From: Pyxidicoccus trucidator
Lineage (GTDB): Bacteria; Myxococcota; Myxococcia; Myxococcales; Myxococcaceae
Direction of reading: 5' to 3'
Length of the DNA: 64,000 nt
NCBI RefSeq assembly: GCF_010894435.1
Contig: NZ_JAAIXZ010000001.1
Span: 960,322-1,024,321, forward strand
Made by a program: the position numbers and the translations under genes. The notes under the pieces are model-generated. The model was given only the letters and a program-made list of their open reading frames with translations. It was not told where the DNA came from and did not search any database. Shown here piece after piece: positions 973 through 25,687 of the stretch. Numbering within the stretch: the stretch's first letter is position 1; each line of letters begins with the position of its first letter.

Positions 973-1104
973 TCAAGGTGACTCACCGGAAGTGCTGAAG
1001 GGGTGGGGGGGAACCGCCTTCAGCCCCGCTTCGATGTGTCCCGCGCATTCCTTTAGCAGCCGCCGTGCCAGCGTCTTCGCGAAGCCAAAGTCCAGTTTTC
1101 TCAA
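973..1104 (-). CDS. possible 43-residue small protein
   Basis: A short reading frame that I do not recognise. It would start at TTG and encode a basic amphipathic segment (AKTLARRLLKECAGHIEAGL) ending in GESP. Support is positional: its TGA lies 8 nt before a good leftward terminator, and residue composition looks protein-like (third-position GC, helix-like spacing). Against it: no clear ribosome site, a TTG start, and an in-frame stop only four codons further upstream. It could equally be the surviving 3' end of a decayed gene, or part of the 3' untranslated region of the regulator operon. Low confidence. Confidence 0.3.
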   Translation of the reverse strand: MRKLDFGFAKTLARRLLKECAGHIEAGLKAVPPHPFSTSGESP

Positions 1105-20578: not shown

Positions 20579-21250
20579 TCAGGTGCCCGTGGCGGCGGTG
20601 GCCGTCGCGGGCGCGTGGGGCTCGATGAGGCCGTACTGCCCATCCTTGCGCCGGTAGACGATGCACAGCGAGTCCGACTCCACGTTGTGGAAGACGTAGA
20701 AGTCGTTGTTCATCAGGTTCATCTGCATCACCGCGTCGTCCACCGAGAGCGGCTTGACGGCGAGGTGGGTGGCCCGCACCACACGAGCGGAGGGGGGGAC
20801 CTCGGCGGCGGGTGCCACGGAGAGGGACTTCGGCTCGGCCACCGCGGCGATTCCCGGGGTTGCCTCGTCCATGGCCTCCACGTCCGGCGGCATCTCGAAC
20901 ACGGCGTGGCGGACCCTGAGCTGGTTCACCAGGTCCTGACGGTGGTGCACGCGCTCCTTGCCATGATGGGTCTTCAGCTTGTCGCGGTAGCGCCGCAGCT
21001 GGCGCTCGATTTTGTCCATCGCCAGGTCGATGGACGCGTACATGTCATCGCTCTTCTCGCGCCCTCGCAGCACCCAGGCGCCGGAGTGGATGGTGATGTC
21101 GGCGTGGTGGAGGTGACGCTCCAAGGAGAGAACCACGTGGGCTTCCCCGGCCCGGTCCAGCAGTCGGTTCACCCGTTCGACCTTCTCGCGTGCGTACTCC
21201 TTGAGGGAATCCGACGTGCCGAATTGACGGAAGGTGATGTTGAACTGCAT
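20579..21250 (-). CDS. hpf: ribosome hibernation promoting factor, long form
   Basis: Protein that binds resting ribosomes and pairs them into 100S dimers. The N-terminal 100 residues are the ribosome-binding domain (MQFNITFRQFGTSDSLKEYA, DDMYASIDLAMDKIERQLRR). A Pro/Ala/Val linker of 65 residues precedes the dimerisation domain near the C-terminus (LSVDDAVMQMNLMNNDFYVF and RRKDGQYGLIEP). At 223 residues it is a long HPF. AGGAGG precedes the ATG. It sits in the classic rpoN-hpf-ptsN order, separated from rpoN by two genes. A large hairpin lies upstream. Confidence 0.95.
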   Translation of the reverse strand: MQFNITFRQFGTSDSLKEYAREKVERVNRLLDRAGEAHVVLSLERHLHHADITIHSGAWVLRGREKSDDMYASIDLAMDKIERQLRRYRDKLKTHHGKERVHHRQDLVNQLRVRHAVFEMPPDVEAMDEATPGIAAVAEPKSLSVAPAAEVPPSARVVRATHLAVKPLSVDDAVMQMNLMNNDFYVFHNVESDSLCIVYRRKDGQYGLIEPHAPATATAATGT

Positions 21251-23181: not shown

Positions 23182-24699
23182 TCAGTAGTAGCGCTTGCGC
23201 TTGCTGCTGGGGAGGATGCCCAGCACCTCGCGGTACTTGGCCACCGTGCGGCGGGCAATCTCGGTGCCCTGGGCGCGCAGCAGCTCGACAATCTTCTGGT
23301 CCGAGTACGGGTTGCGAGGGTCTTCCTGCGACACCAGCTGCTTGATGTGGTGCTTCACCGCCTCGCTCGCGGTGTCCTCACCGGAGACGCGGGCGATGGA
23401 CGAGTTGAAGAAGTACTTCAGCTCGAAGATGCCCTGCGGGGTGTGCACGTACTTGCTGGTGGTGACGCGGCTCACCGTGGACTCGTGCATGCCGATGTCC
23501 TCGGCCACGTCGCGGAGGATGAGCGGCTTGAGGTGGGCGATGCCCTTGTCCAGGAAGTCCCGCTGGAACTTGATGATGCTCTCGGTGACTTTGTAGATGG
23601 TCCGCTGGCGCTGGTGGATGGAGCGGATGAGCCACATCGCGCTGCGCAGCTTGTCCTGGATGAAGTCCTTCGTCTGGCCGGGGCCCACCGCGCCCGTCTT
23701 CAGCGCGTTCCGGTAGGTGCCGGAGATGCGCAGCTTGGACAGGCCGTCGTCGTTCAGCACCACCGTGTAGTCTTCCCCCATCTTGTAGACGAACACGTCG
23801 GGGGTGATGTACTGCGCGTCGTCGCCGCTGAAGTTGCGGCCCGGCTTCGGGTCCAGCTTGGGCAGCAGCTTCACCGCCTCCACCACCTCCTCCATGGGGA
23901 CCTTCAGGTCCTTGGCGATGGCGGGCAGGTTCTTGCTCTCCAGATATTTCATGTGGCGCTTGATGATGAGGCCCAGCAGGGCCGCGCCCTTCTCCTTCAT
24001 CCCCTGAATCTGGATGAGCAGGCACTCCTGCAAGTCACGGGCGCCGCAGCCGCGGGGCTCCAGCGACTGGATGCGGCGCAGCGTGCGCTCCGCCACGTGC
24101 ATGGGCACGTCCGCCTCGTTCGTCAGGCGGATGAGCGGGTCGCCATCCACGTCCGGCAGCTTGAGGTAGCCGTCGTCATCCAGGTTGCCGAGGATGAGCA
24201 TGGCGACGCGGCGCTCGGCCTCGTTCAGGCGCAGCGTGCCGAGCTGCTCCTGGAGGTGGTCGACCAGGTCCTCCTTCTTCACGAGGTTGGCCTCGAACGA
24301 CGGCAGGTCGTCCGTGGCCACGTTGCCCTTGTTGGAGGCGGTGGTCGGCTCGTTGAACTGGTAGCTGTTGAGGTACTGCTCCCAGTCGATTTCGGGAGGG
24401 CCCTCGCCGTCGGCCTTGAACTCGGGGGCGGTGTCGGCCGTGGCGGCCGGCATCTCCATGTCGCGGGGCACCTCGGCGTTGTCCGCCTCCAGCGAGGCCT
24501 CGCCCGGCTCCTTATCAGCCACGTCGCCAGGCGCCTGCTCGTCTGGCTGCTCAAGCAGTGGGTTCTGCTCCATCTCCTCGCGGACCTGCTCGAGCAGTTC
24601 CATCCGCGAAAGCTGGAGGAGCTTGATGGCCTGCTGCAGCTGCGGCGTCATCACCAGCTGCTGGGCAAGCTTCAGGCTTTGTTTCAGTTCCATCGCCAT
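23182..24699 (-). CDS. rpoN: RNA polymerase sigma-54 factor
   Basis: Alternative sigma factor needed for promoters served by NtrC-type activators, such as the regulator at the left of this window. The 505-residue protein has the glutamine/leucine-rich activator-contact region I (about 1-45), an acidic region II (about 50-115), a core-binding domain, a helix-turn-helix region (ESTVSRVTTSKYV) and the near-invariant RpoN box ARRTVAKYRE close to the C-terminus, which reads the -24 element. It follows lptB in the same direction after a 247-nt gap that carries its own promoter candidates, including a -24/-12 element. In Myxococcus xanthus rpoN is reported to be essential (established knowledge). 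Confidence 0.97.
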   Translation of the reverse strand: MAMELKQSLKLAQQLVMTPQLQQAIKLLQLSRMELLEQVREEMEQNPLLEQPDEQAPGDVADKEPGEASLEADNAEVPRDMEMPAATADTAPEFKADGEGPPEIDWEQYLNSYQFNEPTTASNKGNVATDDLPSFEANLVKKEDLVDHLQEQLGTLRLNEAERRVAMLILGNLDDDGYLKLPDVDGDPLIRLTNEADVPMHVAERTLRRIQSLEPRGCGARDLQECLLIQIQGMKEKGAALLGLIIKRHMKYLESKNLPAIAKDLKVPMEEVVEAVKLLPKLDPKPGRNFSGDDAQYITPDVFVYKMGEDYTVVLNDDGLSKLRISGTYRNALKTGAVGPGQTKDFIQDKLRSAMWLIRSIHQRQRTIYKVTESIIKFQRDFLDKGIAHLKPLILRDVAEDIGMHESTVSRVTTSKYVHTPQGIFELKYFFNSSIARVSGEDTASEAVKHHIKQLVSQEDPRNPYSDQKIVELLRAQGTEIARRTVAKYREVLGILPSSKRKRYY

Positions 24700-24747
24700 G
24701 AGACGGGGCTCCCGATCTGATTCAGTCCCTTATAAACCGGGACCACA

Positions 24748-24763
24748 ATCAAAGACCGTGCCA
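24748..24763 (-). promoter_or_regulatory. near-consensus sigma-54 promoter element upstream of rpoN
   Basis: Read on the minus strand, TGGCACG then GTCT then TTGAT matches TGGCACG-N4-TTGCW at every fixed position except the -12 C, which is A. Initiation would fall near 24737, about 38 nt before the rpoN ATG. A TATAAG box lies just downstream (24736-24731) and could serve sigma-70 instead. Functionality is inference. Confidence 0.5.
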
Positions 24764-24946
24764 ACGTAACAAGATGCCTGGGGTTCGTCTAGTGGGGGAA
24801 AGGTGGTCTCTTGCTTGCACAGCTCAAAATCTGCAAGGAAACCAACAACTTACACACACTCCGCGTGAGACGCGGGTGTTCACCCCACGACGCAAAAGTG
24901 GGGCCAACCCATCCTAGTCACTCGGTTGGCTGGTGGGTAGTGGTGC

Positions 24947-25687
24947 TCAGAGGGCCTGTTGCAGGCGGAACCGTTCCCCCAGGTAGACGGCGCGCGCCTT
25001 GGGGGAGGCGGCAATCTGGGCGGGGGTCCCCTCTTCGAGAATCTGCCCCTGTGCGATGATGTACGCACGGTCACAGATGCCGAGGGTGTCCTGGACGTTG
25101 TGGTCGGTGATGAGGACGCCGAGCCCGCGCTCGCGCAGGAGGAAGATCTGCCGCTGGAGGTCGCCCACTGCGATGGGGTCCACGCCGGCGAAGGGCTCGT
25201 CGAAGAGGATGAAGCGGGGCTGGGGGATGAGGCTGCGGGCAATCTCCGTGCGGCGGCTCTCGCCACCGGAGAGGTCCCCGGCGAACGACTCGCCCACGTG
25301 CGTGAGACCGAACTCCTCCAGGAGTGCGTCGGCGCGCTGCTCGCGGGCGCGCTTGTCCAGCCCCTTCTGCAGCTCCAGCACGGCGAGGAAGTTGTCGCGC
25401 ACGGTGAGCTTGCGGAAGACGGAGGCTTCCTGGGGCAGGTAGCCCACGCCCCTGCGCGCGCGGCGGTGCATGGGCAGGTGGGTGAGGTCCTCATCGCCCA
25501 CGCGCACCCGGCCGCCGTCCGGCGTCACCAGCCCCACCACCATGTTGAAGCTCGTCGTCTTGCCTGCGCCATTGGGGCCCAGCAGGCCCACCACCTCGCC
25601 GGGAGCGACGCTGAAGGACACGCCACCCACCACCTTGCGGCTGCGGTAGGACTTTTCCAGGCCTTCGGCGAAAAGCTTCGCGCTCAC
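24947..25687 (-). CDS. lptB: LPS export ABC ATPase LptB
   Basis: Cytoplasmic motor of the Lpt bridge that extracts lipopolysaccharide from the inner membrane. The 246 residues hold Walker [11 protein letters not shown]-loop LPQEAS, signature LSGGESRR, Walker B FILFDEPF followed by AGVDP, and the switch H in ITDHNVQDT, all as in LptB. GTG start overlapping the lptA stop (GTGA). With lptA and lptC it forms a tight cassette; the LptF/G permeases and LptD are not in the window. rpoN follows, as in many proteobacteria. Confidence 0.97.

Follow-up and report, generated by a model that had tools for sequence, protein, structure and literature searches.

A conserved sigma-54 recognition element overlaps a putative sigma-70-type promoter upstream of rpoN in Myxococcaceae and may mediate negative autoregulation

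The stretch of DNA analyzed here (the window, 64,000 nt) belongs to a 12.67-Mb genome and carries rpoN on the minus strand at 23182..24699. The open reading frame encodes a sigma-54 protein of 505 aa in which Pfam identified three sigma-54 domains. The gene had a single match in its own 12.67-Mb genome, and the nearest relative by rpoN among the named matches listed was Pyxidicoccus caerfyrddinensis (99% identical). On its 5' side, an ABC-transporter ATPase gene (24947..25687, minus strand; open reading frame and Pfam) ends with its stop codon 247 nt before the rpoN ATG; its position suggests that it is lptB. A gene for a sigma-54 modulation/S30AE protein (hpf-like; open reading frame and Pfam) was located at 20579..21250 on the minus strand, downstream of rpoN and non-adjacent to it. 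In the other families of the class, the lptB-rpoN gap was measurable in 19 of 29 cases and was shorter than 50 nt in 12, 60–123 nt in 6, and 349 nt in one. An Rfam search of positions 24500–25200 gave zero matches at E≤1, and no intrinsic terminator was found in a search of 24650–24960. Two deviating rpoN arrangements were seen in other genomes. One genome (G136) contained, beside the main copy, an additional rpoN-like match of divergent sequence (40% identity over residues 130–503). In one family of the class (f2, G076–G085), the rpoN match fell into two or three pieces with a break near residues 180–200 in 10 of the 10 genomes listed, which suggests an insertion in the protein at these residues.

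The region 5' of the rpoN open reading frame contains the proximal sigma-54-type element TTGGCACGGTCTTTGAT (24764–24748, minus strand), which ends 48 nt before the rpoN ATG. Within it, TGGCACGGTCTTTGAT occupies 24763–24748, with the -24 GG at 24762–24761, the -13 G at 24750 and the -12 A at 24749; the predicted sigma-54 start is near 24737. Compared with YTGGCACGrNNNTTGCW, which we take to be the sigma-54 consensus, the element deviates solely at -12 (A for C). The original prediction had reported TGGCACG-N4-TTGAT in front of rpoN, off consensus only at -12, and this was confirmed on the minus strand with A as the -12 base. The distance given there, 38 to 50 nt before the ATG, required correction, because the element measured 48 to 63 nt from it (10–13 nt more). 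A search word for sigma-54 sites that permitted A or C at -12 had one exact match in the window and, with at most one mismatch, 2 matches versus 0.87 expected, a number equaled by 22 of 100 shuffles. The sequence TGGCACGGCGGCTGCT at 1055–1070 (minus strand) has one mismatch to this word. In the whole genome, TTGGCACG-N4-TTG was found twice, one of the matches being that at rpoN (control word, 1). Near-consensus sigma-54 words ending in TTGCW occurred 4 times (control, 1) and those ending in TTGAW 5 times (control, 0); the counts were too small, and no enrichment of such words was detected in this genome. The chance test inside the window alone is a weak case for the site, and the strong evidence to be read from the sequence is its conservation.

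The word TTGGCA[CT][AGC]-N4-TTG was present within 80 nt of the rpoN start in 79 of 80 Myxococcaceae upstream regions. These regions came from 73 of the 74 genomes with an rpoN match (among 76 genomes) and from 7 of 20 further genomes; L127 was left out, since a contig end cuts its region. The sole miss was L183, in which the gene start is unreadable. All of 18 named Myxococcaceae loci, including M. xanthus, Corallococcus, Citreicoccus and Hyalangium, had the site, although they are partly the same organisms as in the 80-region set. Because the search word fixes TTGGCA, the -15 T, the -14 T and the -13 G and restricts -21 to C or T and -20 to A, G or C, the uniformity of the fixed positions inside the 79 sequences is partly by construction, whereas the 79/80 itself is not. 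Among the 79 sequences, -21 was C in 74 and T in 5, -20 was G in 72 and A in 7, and the four spacer bases varied except for the last one (-16), which was invariably T or C. Of the 25 genera read, in which rpoN identity to that of the window fell as low as 66%, 24 had the element, while across the family the ATG lay at varying distances from it (20–80 nt) and most alignment columns on either side were variable. This pattern makes it scarcely credible that the site is a functionless product of chance or phylogenetic inertia, even though a match of this quality is not rare within the window alone.

The original prediction had named alignment of this region as a check on the GG and GC positions. 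GG at -24 and G at -13 were conserved, but C at -12 was not: 70 of the 79 sequences had A there, 6 had T, 2 had G and 1 had C. With respect to the marks of a sigma-54 promoter, GG at -25/-24 within YTGGCA and the N4 box spacing were found, both being demanded by the word that occurred in 79/80 regions; GC at -13/-12 was not found, since the -13 G is part of that word and -12 is mostly A. Because A stands at -12 instead of C, we classed the element as a sigma-54 recognition element and not as a typical promoter.

Outside the family, the strict word was absent upstream of rpoN in all 29 regions from other families of the class (29 of 44 non-Myxococcaceae genomes of the class, one region, L151, being only 180 nt long). 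A looser pattern occurred in 3 of the 29 (L153, L154 and L158), each time more than 300 nt upstream, and a relaxed 300-nt scan of the same regions gave none at p<0.05 against shuffles. When the relaxed scan was applied to 62 more distant rpoN loci, 5 reached p≤0.03 with about 2 expected, and only L099 was striking. This locus, from a Deltaproteobacteria MAG, contains TTGGCTTGACATTTGCA 43 nt before rpoN, a sigma-54-like sequence with GG and GC that was matched in quality by 0 of 100 shuffles; it is possibly an independent case in a distant lineage.

In the window, TACGTT (24763..24768, minus strand; predicted start near 24756), a -10-like hexamer of a putative housekeeping-type promoter, overlaps the proximal element, its final two T being shared with the beginning of TTGGCA. 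A -35-like hexamer, TAGACG (24786..24791, minus strand), lies 17 bp from TACGTT. In 76 of the 79 sequences, TTGGCA was preceded by TA at a distance of 4 or 5 nt, which yields a -10-like TAnnnT with its last T inside the anchor word; from the regional TA frequency of 0.0197 per position, TA would be expected there in about 4%. The exceptions were two g21 sequences with no abutting -10 and one g5 sequence with a one-base shift. The -35 of the Myxococcaceae regions usually stood 17 bp upstream of the abutting -10-like element and was weak or indistinct in g17 and g23. When the 200 nt preceding the gene start were scanned for sigma-70 pairs without guidance, the best pair fell exactly at the abutting -10 in 45/79 sequences versus 7/790 shuffles, and the abutting pair ranked among the five best in 72/79 (-35/-10 spacing of 15–19 bp). 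The best-scoring pair lay elsewhere in 34/79. A strict consensus scan upstream of the window's rpoN found no sigma-70 promoter. Because of this negative scan and of the rival pairs in some genera, the sigma-70-type promoter was judged by its conservation and not by its strength. The original prediction of a dual promoter thus stands in kind, as a conserved -35/-10 pair that overlaps the -24 element from upstream. The TATAAG box on which it had been based (24729..24734, minus strand) was present in only 2/79 leaders and was dropped as a second promoter. Since the -10-like TAnnnT abuts the -24 element, usually together with a -35, binding of the two polymerases, sigma-70 and sigma-54, is expected to be mutually exclusive. 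The sigma-54 site and the -10-like motif overlap in 76/79 sequences, and the overlapped promoter would be the one used for rpoN.

An alternative is that TTGGCA is itself a sigma-70 -35 with an accidental likeness to a -24 element. TTGGCA agrees with TTGACA at 5 of 6 positions, and in 14 of the 34 sequences with the best pair elsewhere (14/79 overall, including 9 of 11 Corallococcus) the weighted scan used TTGGCA as the -35, with -10 hexamers resembling TCCAAT. However, when the sequences were read up to the ATG, TAnnnT stood 15–19 nt downstream of TTGGCA in 1/79, and downstream of TTGA as the -35 in 0/79. Such a -35 would also leave CA[CT][AG]-N4-TTG at sigma-54 spacing unexplained, as well as its own retention in genera with short leaders, where the corresponding -10 would lie at the gene or within it. 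We regard this explanation as very improbable.

An inverted repeat, predicted to form a leader hairpin (24716..24753, minus strand), holds the TTGAT of the -12 element in its 5' arm. When the leaders of the core genera were folded from the predicted sigma-70-type start, all five TTGAT bases lay in the 5' arm of the hairpin in 36 of 42 distinct leaders versus 3.8 expected with the downstream part shuffled, and the mean energy was -15.1 versus -8.7 kcal/mol in the shuffles. Whole-leader folds compared with whole shuffles showed a modest effect (core-genus mean z of -1.54 to +0.33). RNAalifold did not recover a consensus hairpin from Myxococcus leaders; from Corallococcus/Citreicoccus leaders it recovered the hairpin, with one pair changed on both sides. 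The putative leader hairpin is therefore based on the fixed-arm test and not on covariation, and the inverted repeat could act as DNA instead. A sigma-54 transcript from 24737 would begin within the hairpin, and the full hairpin needs an RNA start further upstream, indicating that, if the hairpin is active in RNA, the functional transcript begins upstream of the -12 box. Just past the hairpin, the Corallococcus leaders L016–L020 and L022–L024 carry a GTGGCACG/GTGGCCCG word some 32 nt upstream of rpoN, for which no -12 partner is evident.

The composite word TANNTTGGCAYG-N4-TTG, which joins the two promoter types, had 50 matches in the 76 family genomes, one each in 50 genomes, while the reversed control had 3. 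All 50 matches were located at most 90 nt upstream of rpoN (coordinates compared by eye). In the 26 genomes without the word, the gap from TA to TTGG was one base longer, a base of the word differed, the adjoining TA was missing (g21), the region was truncated or could not be read, or rpoN itself had no match. The exclusiveness of the word to rpoN in the searched genomes would also be expected if it were the operator of a dedicated rpoN regulator whose resemblance to a sigma-54 site is incidental, as would the lack of an excess of near-consensus sigma-54 words in the window's genome and the inverted repeat that overlaps the 3' end of the element in the core genera. We nevertheless consider such a regulator improbable, because the sigma-54 consensus is matched at every recognized position but -12, with correct spacing and tolerated substitutions, and because the site stands before the sigma-54 gene itself.

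Whether the proximal site could start transcription was judged with the rule of PMC4591121, which places the sigma-54 start 19 bp downstream of the motif center, after correction of the start codons in three loci. In ten genera (g1, g4, g8, g9, g11, g12, g15, g16, g18 and g26), the predicted start preceded the ATG by 36–53 nt, and in six (g14, g19, g21, g22, g23 and g24) by 19–29 nt, so that a productive start is geometrically possible in 16/24 genera. In the remaining eight (g2, g5, g6, g7, g10, g17, g20 and g25), which are mostly known from single or few draft genomes, it was at most 11 nt from the start codon or intragenic in 18 of 19 sequences (18/79 overall), and the remaining sequence had it 13 nt ahead of the codon. 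With such positions, a productive sigma-54 promoter is unlikely in these short-leader genera. Their transcripts would lack a normal ribosome-binding site and the element is still kept, which favors a role as a binding site over one as a promoter; leaderless translation from such transcripts is possible. With regard to the -12 base, A occurred in 6 of the 135 sites of the E. coli sigma-54 ChIP-seq study as counted from its Tables 1 and 2, and the hydN site, with A at -12, is listed there as a confirmed promoter (PMC4591121). Therefore, an A at this position does not by itself mean that a site is inactive.

A second, distal sigma-54-like site, TTGGCCCCACTTTTGCG (24891..24907, minus strand), lies 143 bp upstream of the proximal site, with a predicted start near 24880. 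It has GG and GC at sigma-54 spacing and is off consensus at -22 (C for A) and -20 (C). The distal site was found in 41 of the 80 regions, namely in all those read from six genera (g1, g9, g15, g16, g18 and g26), at 143–147 bp from the proximal site, and its word TTGGCCNNNCYTTTGCG had a single match in the own genome. To judge from its sequence, it is a candidate for a sigma-54 promoter driven by an activator and may be connected with the developmental rise of rpoN in M. xanthus, where a passage of PMC6791715 describes the gene as up-regulated throughout development. Further features were observed around this site. An inverted repeat, GGCCCCAC-N9-GTGGGGTG (24881–24905, minus strand), overlaps it, and the right arm was missing in the other Myxococcus rows among those listed. 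Between the distal site and the -35, at about 24803–24846 (minus strand), the core genera share a conserved TGCAA-containing stretch (TGCAAGCAAG in the window), which is a candidate for an activator site or an RNA hairpin, and a variable inverted repeat lies just upstream of it.

The opposite possibility is positive autoregulation, in which a productive sigma-54 promoter and an enhancer-binding protein would raise rpoN expression in starvation or development, with the sigma-70 pair supplying basal RpoN. Pure negative feedback does not predict the rise of M. xanthus rpoN through development noted in that passage of PMC6791715, which counts against self-repression, as does the geometric possibility of a productive sigma-54 promoter in the core genera. 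Positive autoregulation would also make use of the workable leaders in the ten genera with starts at 36–53 nt and the six with starts at 19–29 nt, and of the distal site with its GC at -12 in six genera. However, it does not account for the retention of the proximal site in the 8 of 24 genera with a start at most 11 nt from, or inside, the start codon, or for the preservation of -12 as A rather than C. Moreover, a search of the 420 nt preceding rpoN in the window yielded zero Nla28 half-sites with at most one mismatch. We judge positive autoregulation to be rather unlikely.

The reading that we favor, and hold to be somewhat probable from the sequence comparisons, is negative autoregulation: a binding site for RpoN-RNA polymerase would be fused to the sigma-70-type promoter of rpoN, and its occupation would repress that promoter. 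It would build on established features of the sequence (the site, its conservation, the fixed -10-like overlap, a composite word exclusive to rpoN and an almost invariable A at -12). Usual transcription of rpoN would proceed from the sigma-70-type promoter, with its start some 57 nt ahead of the ATG. At high RpoN levels, the RpoN holoenzyme would occupy the -24/-12 element as a closed complex, cover the sigma-70 -10 and start, and switch the promoter off. In the genera whose predicted sigma-54 start precedes the ATG by 36–53 nt, the closed complex could be made to transcribe by an activated enhancer-binding protein. In the short-leader genera, conversion to transcription would be unlikely, and the site would have the sole role of an operator. 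In Myxococcaceae, the fused site thus probably lets sigma-54 throttle its own synthesis. The original prediction had raised autoregulation, or repression by a closed complex of the gene's own product; this is partly supported, being favored by the comparative data (a site kept in 79/80 regions that sits on a conserved -10-like element). A bolder version, toward which we are inclined to be skeptical, is that Myxococcaceae made the sigma-54 element a pure operator and RpoN-RNA polymerase a dedicated, gene-specific repressor of rpoN, and that the distal GC site was added in six crown genera for developmental induction. It draws on the conserved off-consensus base at -12 and on the placement of the element in several genera, from which productive initiation would bypass the start codon or the ribosome-binding site.

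If negative autoregulation is true, the polymerase carrying sigma-54 governs the synthesis of sigma-54 itself, and the controlling site could be discarded by consensus sigma-54 promoter scans owing to its -12 base. Portions of PMC2725144 and PMC4641369 report that rpoN is essential in M. xanthus, and part of PMC4320627 gives 53 predicted enhancer-binding proteins as partners of sigma-54 in this species, many of them important for development. In the literature searched, as far as its accessible text extends, no account was found of how the amount of sigma-54 is set in M. xanthus. Autoregulation of rpoN is known as a kind. A search of the open literature, limited to accessible portions of the sources, found no description of the element in myxobacteria, nor of its distinctive traits (the composite of sigma-70 and sigma-54 motifs, the A conserved at -12, the restriction to rpoN and the distal partner site); an earlier account in Keseler and Kaiser 1997 or Dombrecht 2002 is possible.

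Among known systems, rpoN of Rhizobium leguminosarum is called negatively autoregulated, with references, in a section of PMC3538637; that gene is likewise under its own product, and the likeness is drawn from this statement of autoregulation and not from site sequence. Excerpts of PMC12316311 infer rpoN autoregulation through sigma-54 promoters for many classes (Bacilli, Clostridia, Erysipelotrichia, Verrucomicrobiia, Planctomycetia and alpha-, beta- and gamma-Proteobacteria; not significant in other phyla) and cite Geobacter and Dokdonia, and the list in these excerpts does not include Myxococcia. The cases there also have sigma-54 promoters before rpoN, whereas the Myxococcaceae differ by the -12 A and by the lock onto a -10-like element; because of the -12 A, a consensus matrix may miss the Myxococcaceae site. 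Regarding the mode of repression, parts of PMC4591121 mention sigma-54 repression where a site overlaps another promoter, describe no roadblock effect of intragenic sigma-54 sites, and call competition at intergenic sites consistent with the data. In E. coli, the RpoN holoenzyme competes with the RpoD holoenzyme at overlapping promoters according to a portion of PMC8743547. These 'repressive promoters' of E. coli K-12 involve the same competition between holoenzymes as proposed here, but rpoN is not named as a target in that portion, and the Myxococcaceae have a family-wide fixed overlap and a word found only at rpoN. Among single sequences, the E. coli bcsC site IS44 is very similar, has A at -12 and is bound in vivo by sigma-54 (PMC4591121). 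IS44 is intragenic and belongs to a set in which A stands at -12 in 6/135 sites, whereas in Myxococcaceae A is the conserved state in front of rpoN.
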